Shown in pieces: positions 24,481 through 43,547 of a stretch of DNA of 48,682 nt (within the stretch, counting starts at the first letter, position 1; the number at the start of each line of letters is the position of its first letter). The notes under the pieces were generated by a model. It saw nothing but the letters and a program-made list of their open reading frames with translations, was not told the DNA's origin and ran no database searches. A program made the position numbers and the translations under genes. Origin of the DNA: a virus. The stretch lies in the IMG/VR virus record IMGVR_UViG_3300046655_000380, positions 1-48,682 of that record, one strand, 5' to 3'.

Positions 24481-24581
24481 TAGACAAAGAAGGTTATACT
24501 CAAAGAGAATGGGATAGAGTTGTAGGTTATGGAAAAGTACCAGATGAATATAAGAAAAAGAATGTTCCAACACAAAAATAA
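24477..24581 (+). CDS. Very small protein
   Basis: The 34-residue frame starts in an ATGA overlap with the M15 gene (MIDKEGYTQREWDRVVGYGK...). It is charged and soluble and overlaps the exonuclease start by 20 bases. The tight coupling argues for a real gene, but there is no homology evidence. Confidence 0.5.
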   Translation: MIDKEGYTQREWDRVVGYGKVPDEYKKKNVPTQK

Positions 24582-25248
24582 TTTAGATATACCAGACATA
24601 AGTGCTAAGACTTCTGATGGCATAAGGTTATACGAAACACCAGAGGGTAAGTTTTATCCATCTATCACTACTGTTTTAAAAAACAGAGGTAAAGAAGGTT
24701 TATTTGAGTGGAGAAAAAGAGTTGGTGAAGATGTTGCAACTTATGTTTCAAGAAAATCTGCAACAAGAGGAACTCAAGTACATCATTATTGTGAAAAGTA
24801 TTTAGACAATGGTTATGAGAACAAAGATTGGAATGAATATAAAAAAGGTAGATTTCTATCTTATTGTTTGTTCTCACAACTAAAACCATATTTAGATAAA
24901 AGAATTGGATTGATACATTGTCAAGAAAGAGCATTATGGCACGACTTTTATAAGATTGCTGGTAGGGTTGATTGTATTGCAGAGTGGAACGGAGAGTTGT
25001 CTGTAATTGATTTCAAAACAAGTACCAAAGAACGAGAAGATAATTGGAATGAGAACTATTATATACAAGCCTCTGCATATGCAGAGATGTATCAAGAAAG
25101 AACATCACAAGAGATAAACCAGATAGTTATATTAGTGGTTACAGAAGACGGTACAGTTCAAGAGTTTGTAAAAGATAAACATAAATATTTGCATCTACTT
25201 GACAAAGAGTTAAATCTATATTATAATACTGTAAAGACTGGTAAATGA
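24562..25248 (+). CDS. RecB/Cas4-like exonuclease (PD-(D/E)XK)
   Basis: The preferred start at 24562 gives 228 residues beginning MFQHKNNLDIPDI, as in homologues of marine T4-like phages. Motifs are FYPSITTVL (about 42-50), a His in GTQVHHYCEKY, and the catalytic core GRVDCIAEWN...LSVIDFKTS with the D and E/D-x-K residues. A QASAYAEMYQE helix with conserved Gln and Tyr follows. It belongs to the RecB-like or MGME1-like exonucleases. It precedes the tmRNA gene. Confidence 0.85.
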   Translation: MFQHKNNLDIPDISAKTSDGIRLYETPEGKFYPSITTVLKNRGKEGLFEWRKRVGEDVATYVSRKSATRGTQVHHYCEKYLDNGYENKDWNEYKKGRFLSYCLFSQLKPYLDKRIGLIHCQERALWHDFYKIAGRVDCIAEWNGELSVIDFKTSTKEREDNWNENYYIQASAYAEMYQERTSQEINQIVILVVTEDGTVQEFVKDKHKYLHLLDKELNLYYNTVKTGK

Positions 25249-25272
25249 AAAATTAACAGTTTGTTCATATAA

Positions 25273-25301
25273 CTTACAGAAATGTAATTTATAGATATAA
25301 A
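25273..25301 (+). promoter_or_regulatory. Possible promoter of the tmRNA gene
   Basis: CTTACA (25273-25278) and TATAAA (25296-25301) are 17 bases apart, giving a +1 near 25308, just before the acceptor piece. A small hairpin, TTACA-GAAA-TGTAA (25274-25287), overlaps the -35. The match is weaker than in classes A and B. Confidence 0.4.
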
Positions 25302-25307
25302 GGATAC

Positions 25308-25366
25308 TTGACGAAGATGACTTTGAGATAGACTGGACGAGGGGGCAGTACCCTCCACCTCCACCA
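25308..25366 (+). ncRNA. ssrA: Two-piece (permuted) tmRNA, acceptor piece
   Basis: The piece ends in an encoded CCA (25364-25366). A T-arm is visible with stem GAGGG/CCCTC (25339-25343 and 25351-25355) and loop GGCAGTA, which lacks the usual TTCGA. The 3' acceptor strand CACCTCC (25356-25362) pairs with GGGGGTG at 25382-25388 of the coding piece. The third pair is G-U, the alanyl-tRNA synthetase identity element. TTAAAG (25407-25412) can pair with CTTTGA (25321-25326). The 5' end is approximate. A 15-base spacer (25367-25381) separates the pieces, as in alphaproteobacterial permuted genes. Confidence 0.9.
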
Positions 25367-25381
25367 AAAAGCCTCTAATGA

Positions 25382-25603
25382 GGGGGTGAAATAGGGTAGA
25401 CAGATGTTAAAGGGTTATTGGAGAGTATGGGTTGACTTCCTTATAGGTCAAACACTATAAACGCAAACGATAACTTTGCATCTCAAGATTTCGCACTAGC
25501 TGCTTAATCTGATAGGGTTCGGTGAGTTCCTAGTAACAGAATACTCACCATTTAATAATGAGTGGTCTGCGGCCCAAGGCAACCAGCACTCCAATACTAG
25601 TTA
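25382..25603 (+). ncRNA. ssrA: Two-piece (permuted) tmRNA, coding piece
   Basis: The 5' end GGGGGTG (25382) closes the acceptor stem. The resume codon GCA is at 25463-25465; the tag reads ANDNFASQDFALAA and stops at TAA 25505-25507, with the ALAA end recognised by ClpXP-type proteases. A hairpin TTGAC/GTCAA (25432-25436, 25447-25451) lies before the tag. After it GGTGAGT/ACTCACC (25521-25527, 25543-25549) forms a stem whose loop base CTAGTA (25530-25535) pairs with TACTAG (25595-25600) as a pseudoknot, with a nested GAGTG/CACTC stem. The RNA would rescue stalled ribosomes with SmpB. The 3' end is approximate. Confidence 0.93.
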
Positions 25604-25614
25604 GGAGAATAACT

Positions 25615-25692
25615 ATGGCTTGGTCAAAACCAACTATTACTGAAATTTCAGTAGGTCTTGAAATTAATTCATACGCTTGCGCTGAGAAGTAA
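25615..25692 (+). CDS. pqqA: PQQ precursor peptide PqqA
   Basis: The 25-residue peptide MAWSKPTITEISVGLEINSY plus ACAEK matches PqqA: W-x-x-P near the N-terminus, then G-x-E-I/V-x-x-Y. Glu16 and Tyr20 keep the E-x-x-x-Y spacing of the residues cross-linked by PqqE to build pyrroloquinoline quinone. AGGAGA (25603-25608) is a strong SD and touches the end of the tmRNA pseudoknot. No pqqB-E genes are present, so host enzymes would have to process it. It is closed by a terminator. Extra cofactor for host methanol or other quinoprotein dehydrogenases is the inferred purpose. Confidence 0.85.
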   Translation: MAWSKPTITEISVGLEINSYACAEK

Positions 25693-25704
25693 TTTCACTA
25701 AATT

Positions 25705-25748
25705 GGGTGGGGTATAATACCCTTGAGGTTTGAACCCACCCTTTTTTT
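25705..25748 (+). terminator. Rho-independent terminator after pqqA
   Basis: GGGTGGG (25705-25711) pairs with CCCACCC (25735-25741), followed by seven Ts. The 23-base loop can itself form GGGTA/TACCC with the 5' side. It ends the tmRNA-pqqA unit. Confidence 0.85.
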
Positions 25749-25777
25749 ATTAATTTTTATTAGATTGTGAATACATT

Positions 25778-25987
25778 ATGACACCAAAAACATTTTCAAT
25801 ATACATAGAATCTCAAGTCAGAGAGAAAAACATATCACATATGGATGCAATATTAGAATATTGTACCAAGAACGAAGTAGAACCAGATAGTATAACTGGT
25901 CTAATCCAAAAACCACTTAAAGATAAAATAGAAGCAAACGCAAGAGATTTAAACTTTTTACCTAAAATGGGTAAACTACCAGTATGA
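25778..25987 (+). CDS. 33: gp33-like late transcription co-activator
   Basis: The 69-residue protein MTPKTFSIYIESQVREKNIS... contains MDAILEYCTKNEVEPDSITG and LKDKIEANARDLNFLP. Short proteins of this pattern directly upstream of gp59 are annotated as gp33 in marine T4-like phages, and T4 itself has 33 next to 59. gp33 links RNA polymerase to the sliding clamp for late transcription. It is shorter than T4 gp33 (about 112 residues), and the assignment rests partly on position. Confidence 0.65.
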   Translation: MTPKTFSIYIESQVREKNISHMDAILEYCTKNEVEPDSITGLIQKPLKDKIEANARDLNFLPKMGKLPV

Positions 25988-26577
25988 TTCATATTATGGA
26001 CGCCTTTAATGCATTTAAAATTTATATGGGTTTGAAAGCACATTTCAACTCAGACTACGACTTTACAAAGTATGGTGGTAAAACTAGAGCTAGTAAATCT
26101 AGTTATCTACAAAGAAAAGACAAACACTTTTTTGGTAAAGTTGCAAGAAAGTATGGTGATGAAACTCAAGACTTTTTTGTTTCTAATTTTTTAAGAAATG
26201 AAAAAGGATACATTGGAGAGTTCAATGATAGGAACTTTACAGATTGGAAAAAAAGACATCAATCATTAAGATATATGTTTGAACAAGATATGAACTTGTT
26301 GTTAAATCAAGTTACAGATTTTAATAAATTATTTACTGTTGAAAACGGACAACACCCAATATTGTTTAGAAATTATTTATCACAAAGAATCAATATAGAA
26401 ACAATGATTATATTAAACAAGTTAGTAAACTATCAAAAGGATTGGGATAAACAAATAAATGAAAACATTATCTGGCCTAATCATAGAAACAAATTAAATA
26501 ATTACGATTCACTATTGACAATTAATGAAACAGAGTATAAAATGAAAGTTCTAAATTTAACAAAAAATAAAAAGTAA
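25984..26577 (+). CDS. 59: Helicase loader, T4 gp59 type
   Basis: The 197-residue protein begins MIHIMDAFNAFKIYMGLKAH and contains YDFTKYGGKTRASKSSYLQRKDKHFFGKVARKY, in which the FTKYGGK region and KDKxFFxKxAxKY are signatures of gp59. The rest is helical. It would load the replicative helicase on gp32-coated DNA. It overlaps gp33 (ATGA) and the following gene (TAATG), in the T4-like order 33-59-32. Confidence 0.88.
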   Translation: MIHIMDAFNAFKIYMGLKAHFNSDYDFTKYGGKTRASKSSYLQRKDKHFFGKVARKYGDETQDFFVSNFLRNEKGYIGEFNDRNFTDWKKRHQSLRYMFEQDMNLLLNQVTDFNKLFTVENGQHPILFRNYLSQRINIETMIILNKLVNYQKDWDKQINENIIWPNHRNKLNNYDSLLTINETEYKMKVLNLTKNKK

Positions 26578-42502: not shown

Positions 42503-42823
42503 ATGATTACTATAACAGAAAACGCAAAAAAATACTTGTACGACATTGCAAAAAAGAACGACAAGAAGTTTGTTTCTTTTGGTGTAAGTGGTGGTGGTTG
42601 TGCTGGTTTCAGTTACAAATGGGATTATATAGATGAGCCTGATAGAGGACATACCATATTTCACATAAAAGACGAAGTATCACTTGCAGTAGATAAAGTT
42701 GCAGAGATGTATATAATGGGTGCTGAAATAGATTATGTACAAGAGATAATGGGTAGTTTCCTAAAAATAAATAATCCACTCACAAAGTCAAGTTGTGGTT
42801 GTGGAGAATCCTTTAGTGTTTAA
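42503..42823 (+). CDS. iscA: A-type Fe-S carrier IscA/HesB
   Basis: The 106-residue protein matches the A-type carriers over its length: MITITENAKKYL, VSGGGCAGFSYKWD (Cys33), MGAEIDYVQEIMGSFLKINN and the C-terminal SCGCGESF (Cys98, Cys100). These three cysteines bind the cluster. It would carry Fe-S clusters from a scaffold to targets in the cytoplasm. HesB/IscA genes are known in marine T4-like phages. An IscU scaffold gene lies 330 bases downstream. Confidence 0.92.
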   Translation: MITITENAKKYLYDIAKKNDKKFVSFGVSGGGCAGFSYKWDYIDEPDRGHTIFHIKDEVSLAVDKVAEMYIMGAEIDYVQEIMGSFLKINNPLTKSSCGCGESFSV

Positions 42824-43154: not shown

Positions 43155-43547
43155 ATGGCGTACAGTAAACAATTATTAGACCATTATGAGAACCCAAGAA
43201 ATGTTGGGACTTTAGATAAAAATAAGAAAAATGTAGGTACTGGTTTGGTAGGAGCGCCAGCGTGTGGTGATGTTATGAAACTTCAGATAGAAGTTAATGA
43301 CAAAGGTACAATAACAGATGCAAAATTTAAAACATTTGGATGTGGTTCTGCAATAGCCAGTAGTTCGCTAGTTACTGAGTGGCTGAAAGGAGCTCACATT
43401 GACGATGCACAATCAATTAAAAACACCGAGATTGCAACCGAACTTGCACTTCCCCCAGTTAAGATACATTGTTCAGTTCTTGCTGAAGATGCTGTCAAGT
43501 CTGCGATCTCTGATTATAAAAGAAAGTGCAGTTGTGATGATAGCTAG
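43155..43547 (+). CDS. iscU: Fe-S scaffold protein IscU
   Basis: The 130-residue protein is a complete IscU. Cys37, Asp39, Cys63, His105 and Cys106 sit at the same positions as in E. coli IscU. ALPPVK (98-103) is the HscA chaperone-binding motif. APACGDVMKLQI and FGCGSAIASSS are intact. It could assemble [2Fe-2S] clusters using host IscS and HscA/HscB. It has a good SD (TAGGAG). Codon use looks richer in G and C than that of its neighbours (for example GCG-CCA-GCG and CTT-CCC-CCA), which fits recent capture from a bacterium. The tail CSCDDS has two extra cysteines. Confidence 0.93.
   Translation: MAYSKQLLDHYENPRNVGTLDKNKKNVGTGLVGAPACGDVMKLQIEVNDKGTITDAKFKTFGCGSAIASSSLVTEWLKGAHIDDAQSIKNTEIATELALPPVKIHCSVLAEDAVKSAISDYKRKCSCDDS

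Follow-up and report, generated by a model that had tools for sequence, protein, structure and literature searches.

What might a marine T4-like phage gain from a gene for PqqA, the peptide precursor of the cofactor PQQ? The question is raised by a stretch of 48,682 nucleotides (hereafter the window; IMG/VR record IMGVR_UViG_3300046655_000380), a linear 48.7-kb fragment of such a phage, the rest of whose genome lies outside the record. A preliminary description of the window, based on its letters, had proposed that the phage encodes PqqA and feeds the PQQ pathway of its host.

The open reading frame in question occupies positions 25615–25692 of the plus strand, begins with ATG, ends with TAA and encodes the 25-residue peptide MAWSKPTITEISVGLEINSYACAEK. 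It had been taken for a PqqA with the residue pair Glu16/Tyr20, and a profile search had been named as the check. Both profiles searched agreed: the peptide scored 32.0 bits (E = 1.2e-7) against Pfam PF08042, the cut-off of which is 21.1 bits, and 39.4 bits (E = 3.8e-10) against the NCBIfam equivalog model TIGR02107 (cut-off 20 bits), spanning the full length of the latter. A degenerate DNA pattern for W-x-K-P...E was found at one site in the window and at none in 100 shuffles. With both curated cut-offs exceeded and the peptide conserved among relatives, the open reading frame is a genuine PqqA gene. Glu16 and Tyr20, the reactive pair of the peptide, are the residues that end up in PQQ and are present as described; the motif given earlier as GxEI was too loose, the actual string being VGLEI. 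The claim of a strong Shine-Dalgarno sequence also held, since AGGAG is located at 25603–25607 (plus strand), 7 nt upstream of the ATG, and is kept in relatives.

Genomic context and apparent transcription unit

The gene is flanked by phage genes on the same strand, which bears out the earlier view that it is phage-borne. Upstream lies an exonuclease gene (phrog_298, E = 9.6e-68; 24529–25248), as does an endolysin-like gene, with homologues of PhoH and gp32 further away. Downstream follow the genes for a gp33-like late promoter transcriptional regulator (phrog_254, E = 9.2e-19; 25778–25987) and a gp59-like DNA helicase loader (phrog_269, E = 2.3e-61; 25984–26577). A pqqA of the host kind that sits among such genes and is under selection is a candidate auxiliary metabolic gene. 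The preliminary description was right about the gene and overlooked two RNAs directly upstream of it, a tmRNA and a structured leader, here called R1.

The tmRNA (ssrA) is a permuted two-piece molecule of the alphaproteobacterial type at 25249–25550 (plus strand). It scored 107.8 bits against Rfam RF01849 (gathering score 50 bits) and, over 25304–25507, 113.6 bits against RF04321 (47 bits), and it contains a reading frame for the tag ANDNFASQDFALAA at 25463–25507; ARAGORN did not pick it up, whereas the Rfam models did. Within the 3' end of the exonuclease gene there is a perfect sigma-70-type promoter, TTGACA-17-TATAAT (25199–25227, plus strand; 12/12 consensus match), both hexamers of which are kept in nearly all aligned relatives. 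The promoter is presumably used in the phage, and pqqA is probably co-transcribed with the tmRNA from it. Downstream of pqqA, a terminator-like hairpin, GGGTGGG...CCCACCC followed by a T run, is present at 25705–25748 (plus strand); its pairing is partly conserved among relatives, and the fold of 25690–25770 is no better than that of shuffled sequences (z = −0.92). The promoter, the two-piece tmRNA, R1, the Shine-Dalgarno sequence, pqqA and the hairpin thus follow one another between the T4-like exonuclease gene and the gp33-like gene, and this stretch appears, from the order of its signals, to constitute one transcription unit.

Enzymes that could act on the peptide were not found beside it. 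Searches of the 48.7-kb fragment with host PqqB–E (tblastn) returned nothing, so that the claim that the phage lacks modification enzymes holds for this fragment, and PqqB, PqqC and PqqD were likewise not found in the examined phage loci. None of fifty longer pqqA-bearing viral records contained a PqqE above the cut-off or a match to PQQ alcohol dehydrogenase; PqqE-like matches in two phage records fell far under the cut-off and were dismissed as generic radical-SAM similarity. Because viral records are fragments, this absence is not final. PqqE is an Fe-S enzyme. The window also contains Fe-S cluster assembly genes (A-type carrier family, NifU/IscU-like; 42503–42823 and 43155–43547), and a link between them and PqqE is conceivable.

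Distribution, conservation and probable hosts of phage pqqA

IMG/VR was searched with two DNA pattern scans, the results of which were pooled with loci collected by their flanks. Approximately 243 viral contigs at least carry pqqA, a few of them possibly being overlapping pieces of one contig. The peptides comprise an S type (...NSYACAE; at least 85 contigs), to which that of the window belongs, a C type (...NCYACAE; at least 58) and a B type (...FGFEVTMY and similar; at least 100). The genomic position of the gene varies: in T4-like phages it occupies the gap between the tmRNA and gp33, and in another group it is found near portal and GroES-like genes. This portal/GroES-like co-chaperonin neighbourhood marks a second phage group with pqqA, which spans all three peptide types. 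Several C-type genes have a terminator-like hairpin with a T run just 5' of the Shine-Dalgarno sequence, possibly an attenuator.

The B-type peptide matched cultured phages of Methylophilales, namely Venkman, P19250A, MEP301, MEP401, MEP402 and four Melnitz isolates. The five loci that were checked (Venkman, P19250A, MEP301, MEP401 and Melnitz, the context of MEP402 being left out) each have an ATG, a ribosome-binding site and a stop codon, and all pass TIGR02107. At these sites the published genomes have either no annotation or a 'hypothetical protein' drawn on the opposite strand. PQQ is unmentioned in the main text of the Venkman, MEP301 and MEP401/402 papers, and in the Melnitz paper it appears solely as a medium component (PMC9004378). 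All these carriers infect methylotrophs; they are those within the searched collection, and universality among the methylotroph phages of GenBank is not claimed. The SAR11 phage HTVC008M, present in the same collection, gave no pqqA match. A record named 'Acinetobacter phage' MD-2021a was excluded as a phage case because the ppk and pqqB–E genes beside its pqqA look like a bacterial chromosome.

Relatives of the window locus were collected via the neighbouring exonuclease gene. All 18 relatives with contigs extending past the exonuclease gene (85–100% identical there) have pqqA at the same place, and the gene is missing in nine more distant exonuclease relatives (57–68% identity). A pattern scan in which both codons were left free recovered Glu16 and Tyr20 in 139 of 139 phage contigs. 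The strictest set was fetched by R1 alone, blind to the peptide, and comprised 32 distinct coding sequences. In these, pN/pS is 0.10, synonymous codons vary freely, and the C-terminal GLEINSYACAEK, Glu/Tyr pair included, is unchanged in every sequence. In related phages, purifying selection acts strongly on the Glu/Tyr pair. The preliminary description had stated that it would give way if there were neither a profile match nor conservation of Glu16 and Tyr20 in related phages; in view of the model matches, the conserved pair and C-terminus and the low pN/pS, its identification of the peptide stands.

For the cellular counterpart of the peptide, OM43, SAR11 and Roseobacter had been suggested as the set for comparison. 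The closest cellular PqqA belongs instead to HIMB59/AEGEAN-169 bacteria, and not to OM43, SAR11 proper or Roseobacter; the chromosomal peptide MAWTKPMISEISVGLEINSYACAEK is nearly identical to that of the window. A scan of GTDB genomes with a pattern specific for the ...EINSYACAEK peptide yielded 100 stretches in all, almost confined to apparent HIMB59/AEGEAN-169-type genomes, as assigned by database labels and near-identical peptides, plus a few contigs binned elsewhere. Judged by the 25-residue peptide only, the host is probably a HIMB59-type bacterium. Host assignment via the tmRNA tag was dropped, as HIMB59-type genomes encode tags such as ANDNEMALAA, unlike that of the phage.

PqqE was above the cut-off in nine and PQQ alcohol dehydrogenase in eight of ten genomes with the window type of peptide, a set in which one member may be a different alphaproteobacterium. 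At two examined host-type loci pqqABCDE occur in this order, other pqqA copies standing alone. The likely host therefore has the pathway that the preliminary description had presumed. HIMB59-type genomes contain lone pqqA genes beside unrelated genes, in addition to the copy preceding pqqBCDE. Unlike the pqqA of the window, host copies in HIMB59/AEGEAN-169 bacteria, whether before pqqBCDE or alone, are without R1.

Lone pqqA copies beside unrelated genes are found in some SAR11-V genomes, so that PqqA outside operons is not rare. The phage peptide could in principle have a role unrelated to PQQ, perhaps that of a small regulator or of a peptide modified in another way, with its PqqA sequence as a relic. 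However, the match over the whole of an equivalog model specific to PQQ, the strong purifying selection and the infection of methylotrophs by the cultured carriers all argue for a role in PQQ synthesis, and we consider an unrelated one highly improbable.

R1, a structured RNA upstream of phage pqqA

In the window, R1 occupies 42 nt at 25555–25596 (plus strand) and is composed of three short helices, P1 (25561–25564/25587–25590), P2 (25567–25569/25584–25586) and P3 (25572–25574/25578–25580), with a GU bulge and a CG/AAC internal loop; it scored 48.6 bits with the R1 model, the training alignment of which included the window sequence. In its general form the element is about 42–46 nt long, has three short helices, a GN bulge and the CG/AAC internal loop, and is located 5' of most S-type phage pqqA genes; it was not seen 5' of C- and B-type phage genes. 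Among 35 distinct sequences, nine of the twelve R1 pairs display double compensatory changes. The covariation score was reached by none of 500 shuffles, a count that is not a probability because the sequences are related, and was lost when the strands were slid. RNAalifold gave 7/10, and the window leader taken alone folded no better than shuffles. R1 is not a piece of the tmRNA, the model of which stops at 25550, and some phages that have R1 lack a tmRNA next to it.

When 501 loci were screened with a structural grammar, 83 R1 matches emerged with pqqA as the next gene in all 83, although most of these loci had been chosen because of their pqqA. Linkage is tested more fairly by a scan of all viral contigs with the exact R1 pattern, which returned 84 stretches; 83 of them precede pqqA, and the remaining one reaches the end of its contig after ATGTGGTCAAAACC, with which pqqA begins. 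With a degenerate version of the pattern most matches look like chance sites, and a structural filter kept pqqA-linked ones only. A covarying structure and linkage to one gene (84/84 viral pattern matches) mark R1 as a structured RNA with a probable cis-regulatory role. Its carriers include T4-like phages with and without tmRNA as well as the portal–GroES phages, so that it is not tied to one phage lineage. A phage-type R1–pqqA arrangement also occurs on contigs binned as Maricaulis and Flavobacteriaceae; these appear to be phage contigs wrongly assigned to MAGs.

R1 was also considered as a leader of host pqqA, but the R1 model gave none 5' of the host copies across the 32 HIMB59-order genomes searched. 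The single match in these genomes is on a 191-kb chromosomal contig with housekeeping genes, directly 5' of rpoH (heat-shock sigma factor; identified from its sequence), and R1 is missing from 27 other rpoH orthologues fetched from the order. None was found in 385 sampled alphaproteobacteria, a result which says little because the filters applied lose weak matches.

R1 most likely sets the translation or the stability of the pqqA message. Its 5' half pairs with the start codon in some MWSK-type folds. A simple switch between the 3' strand of P1 and the Shine-Dalgarno sequence is unsupported, their pairing being no stronger than that of permuted pairs (P 0.63–0.92, for this switch geometry alone). 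This result, together with the R1 before rpoH in one HIMB59 genome, which suggests that the element is portable, is consistent with an element of general use in translation or message stability, for instance the site of a host RNA-binding protein, used for pqqA by happenstance and not a pqqA regulator as such. Since all 84 viral pattern matches lie before pqqA and none before another gene, we put the chances of such a general element at somewhat below even. R1 could also represent a riboswitch class not described before, which would respond to PQQ, to an intermediate of its synthesis or to a related redox signal and control whether phage pqqA is translated. Unrelated phage lineages would in that case meter host cofactor supply, one host lineage having put rpoH under the same element; we regard this as an unlikely, speculative reading.

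Small structured leaders 5' of phage genes have precedents in the glutamine riboswitch of Melnitz and the putative psbA-linked riboswitch of a cyanophage, as described in PMC9004378. R1 resembles them in this respect, but Rfam 15 contains no credible match to it. Melnitz is the closest cultured relative at the pqqA locus. It is a related T4-like phage in which a two-piece tmRNA occupies the corresponding position ahead of gp59, just 3' of an early promoter, and its tmRNA region has the glutamine riboswitch where the window phage has R1 (PMC9004378). Melnitz also has pqqA, but of the beta type, sited elsewhere near tRNA-Leu and unannotated.

Proposed supply of PqqA to the host pathway

We propose, with a probability of roughly 70%, that the phage supplies a functional PqqA substrate to host PqqB–E and thereby keeps the cofactor of PQQ-dependent dehydrogenases in production during infection. 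Host PqqE with PqqD, and then PqqB and PqqC, would convert the phage peptide to PQQ, which would serve the PQQ-dependent dehydrogenases of the host while infection runs. Each PQQ made consumes one PqqA peptide, whereas the enzymes are catalytic and can outlive host mRNA. Being the sole stoichiometrically consumed part of the pathway, pqqA might be carried alone for this reason, and a gene of ~75 bp and nothing more could suffice for PQQ synthesis to continue where a phage shuts off host transcription. In HIMB59-type phages the expression of this gene would be set in cis by R1.

In the preliminary description, precursor supply was suggested to limit host quinoprotein activity during infection. 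We prefer the weaker claim that a consumable substrate is kept in supply. Overexpression of single pqq genes, pqqA included, raises PQQ in Gluconobacter (Wang et al. 2016, as cited in PMC7936290). On the other hand, substrate may not be limiting in the host, because most of the twelve host-type genomes checked already hold 2–5 pqqA copies.

Phage PqqA might alternatively act as a decoy or inhibitor: bound to PqqD/PqqE, it would block or divert the synthesis of PQQ in the host. Competition between a short peptide and host PqqA is plausible, and the processing enzymes were not found alongside pqqA in the searched records. Nevertheless, both PQQ-forming residues are invariant, which a decoy would not need, and the phage sequence follows the substrate of the likely host; a decoy is therefore, in our estimate, very unlikely.

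Phage pqqA as such is already known. Methylophilaceae phages VP_266 and VP_139 from Lake Baikal were reported to carry pqqA alongside a methanol dehydrogenase of their own (PMC7678222), and a reservoir study lists virus-encoded pqqA, pqqE and pqqD (PMC13188868). Like the window phage, VP_266 and VP_139 are T4-like phages of PQQ-using bacteria, and their pqqA was proposed to support host PQQ. The window phage differs in its alphaproteobacterial-type peptide and in the tmRNA and R1 leader upstream, and no dehydrogenase was found either in the window or among 50 related records. New, within the open literature searched, are the breadth of the distribution, the presence of the gene in methylotroph phages that have been cultured, peptide types matched to the host, the position behind the tmRNA, and R1.

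A little-reported phage gene thus becomes a widespread and apparently host-matched trait of aquatic phages, and one that illustrates how gene callers overlook genes of ~75 bp that may matter for carbon cycling. As published cultured methylotroph phages carry unannotated pqqA, the feeding of host PQQ synthesis by phages is testable in existing phage–host pairs. R1, being compact, covarying and almost perfectly associated with one gene, is a ready candidate for ligand discovery.
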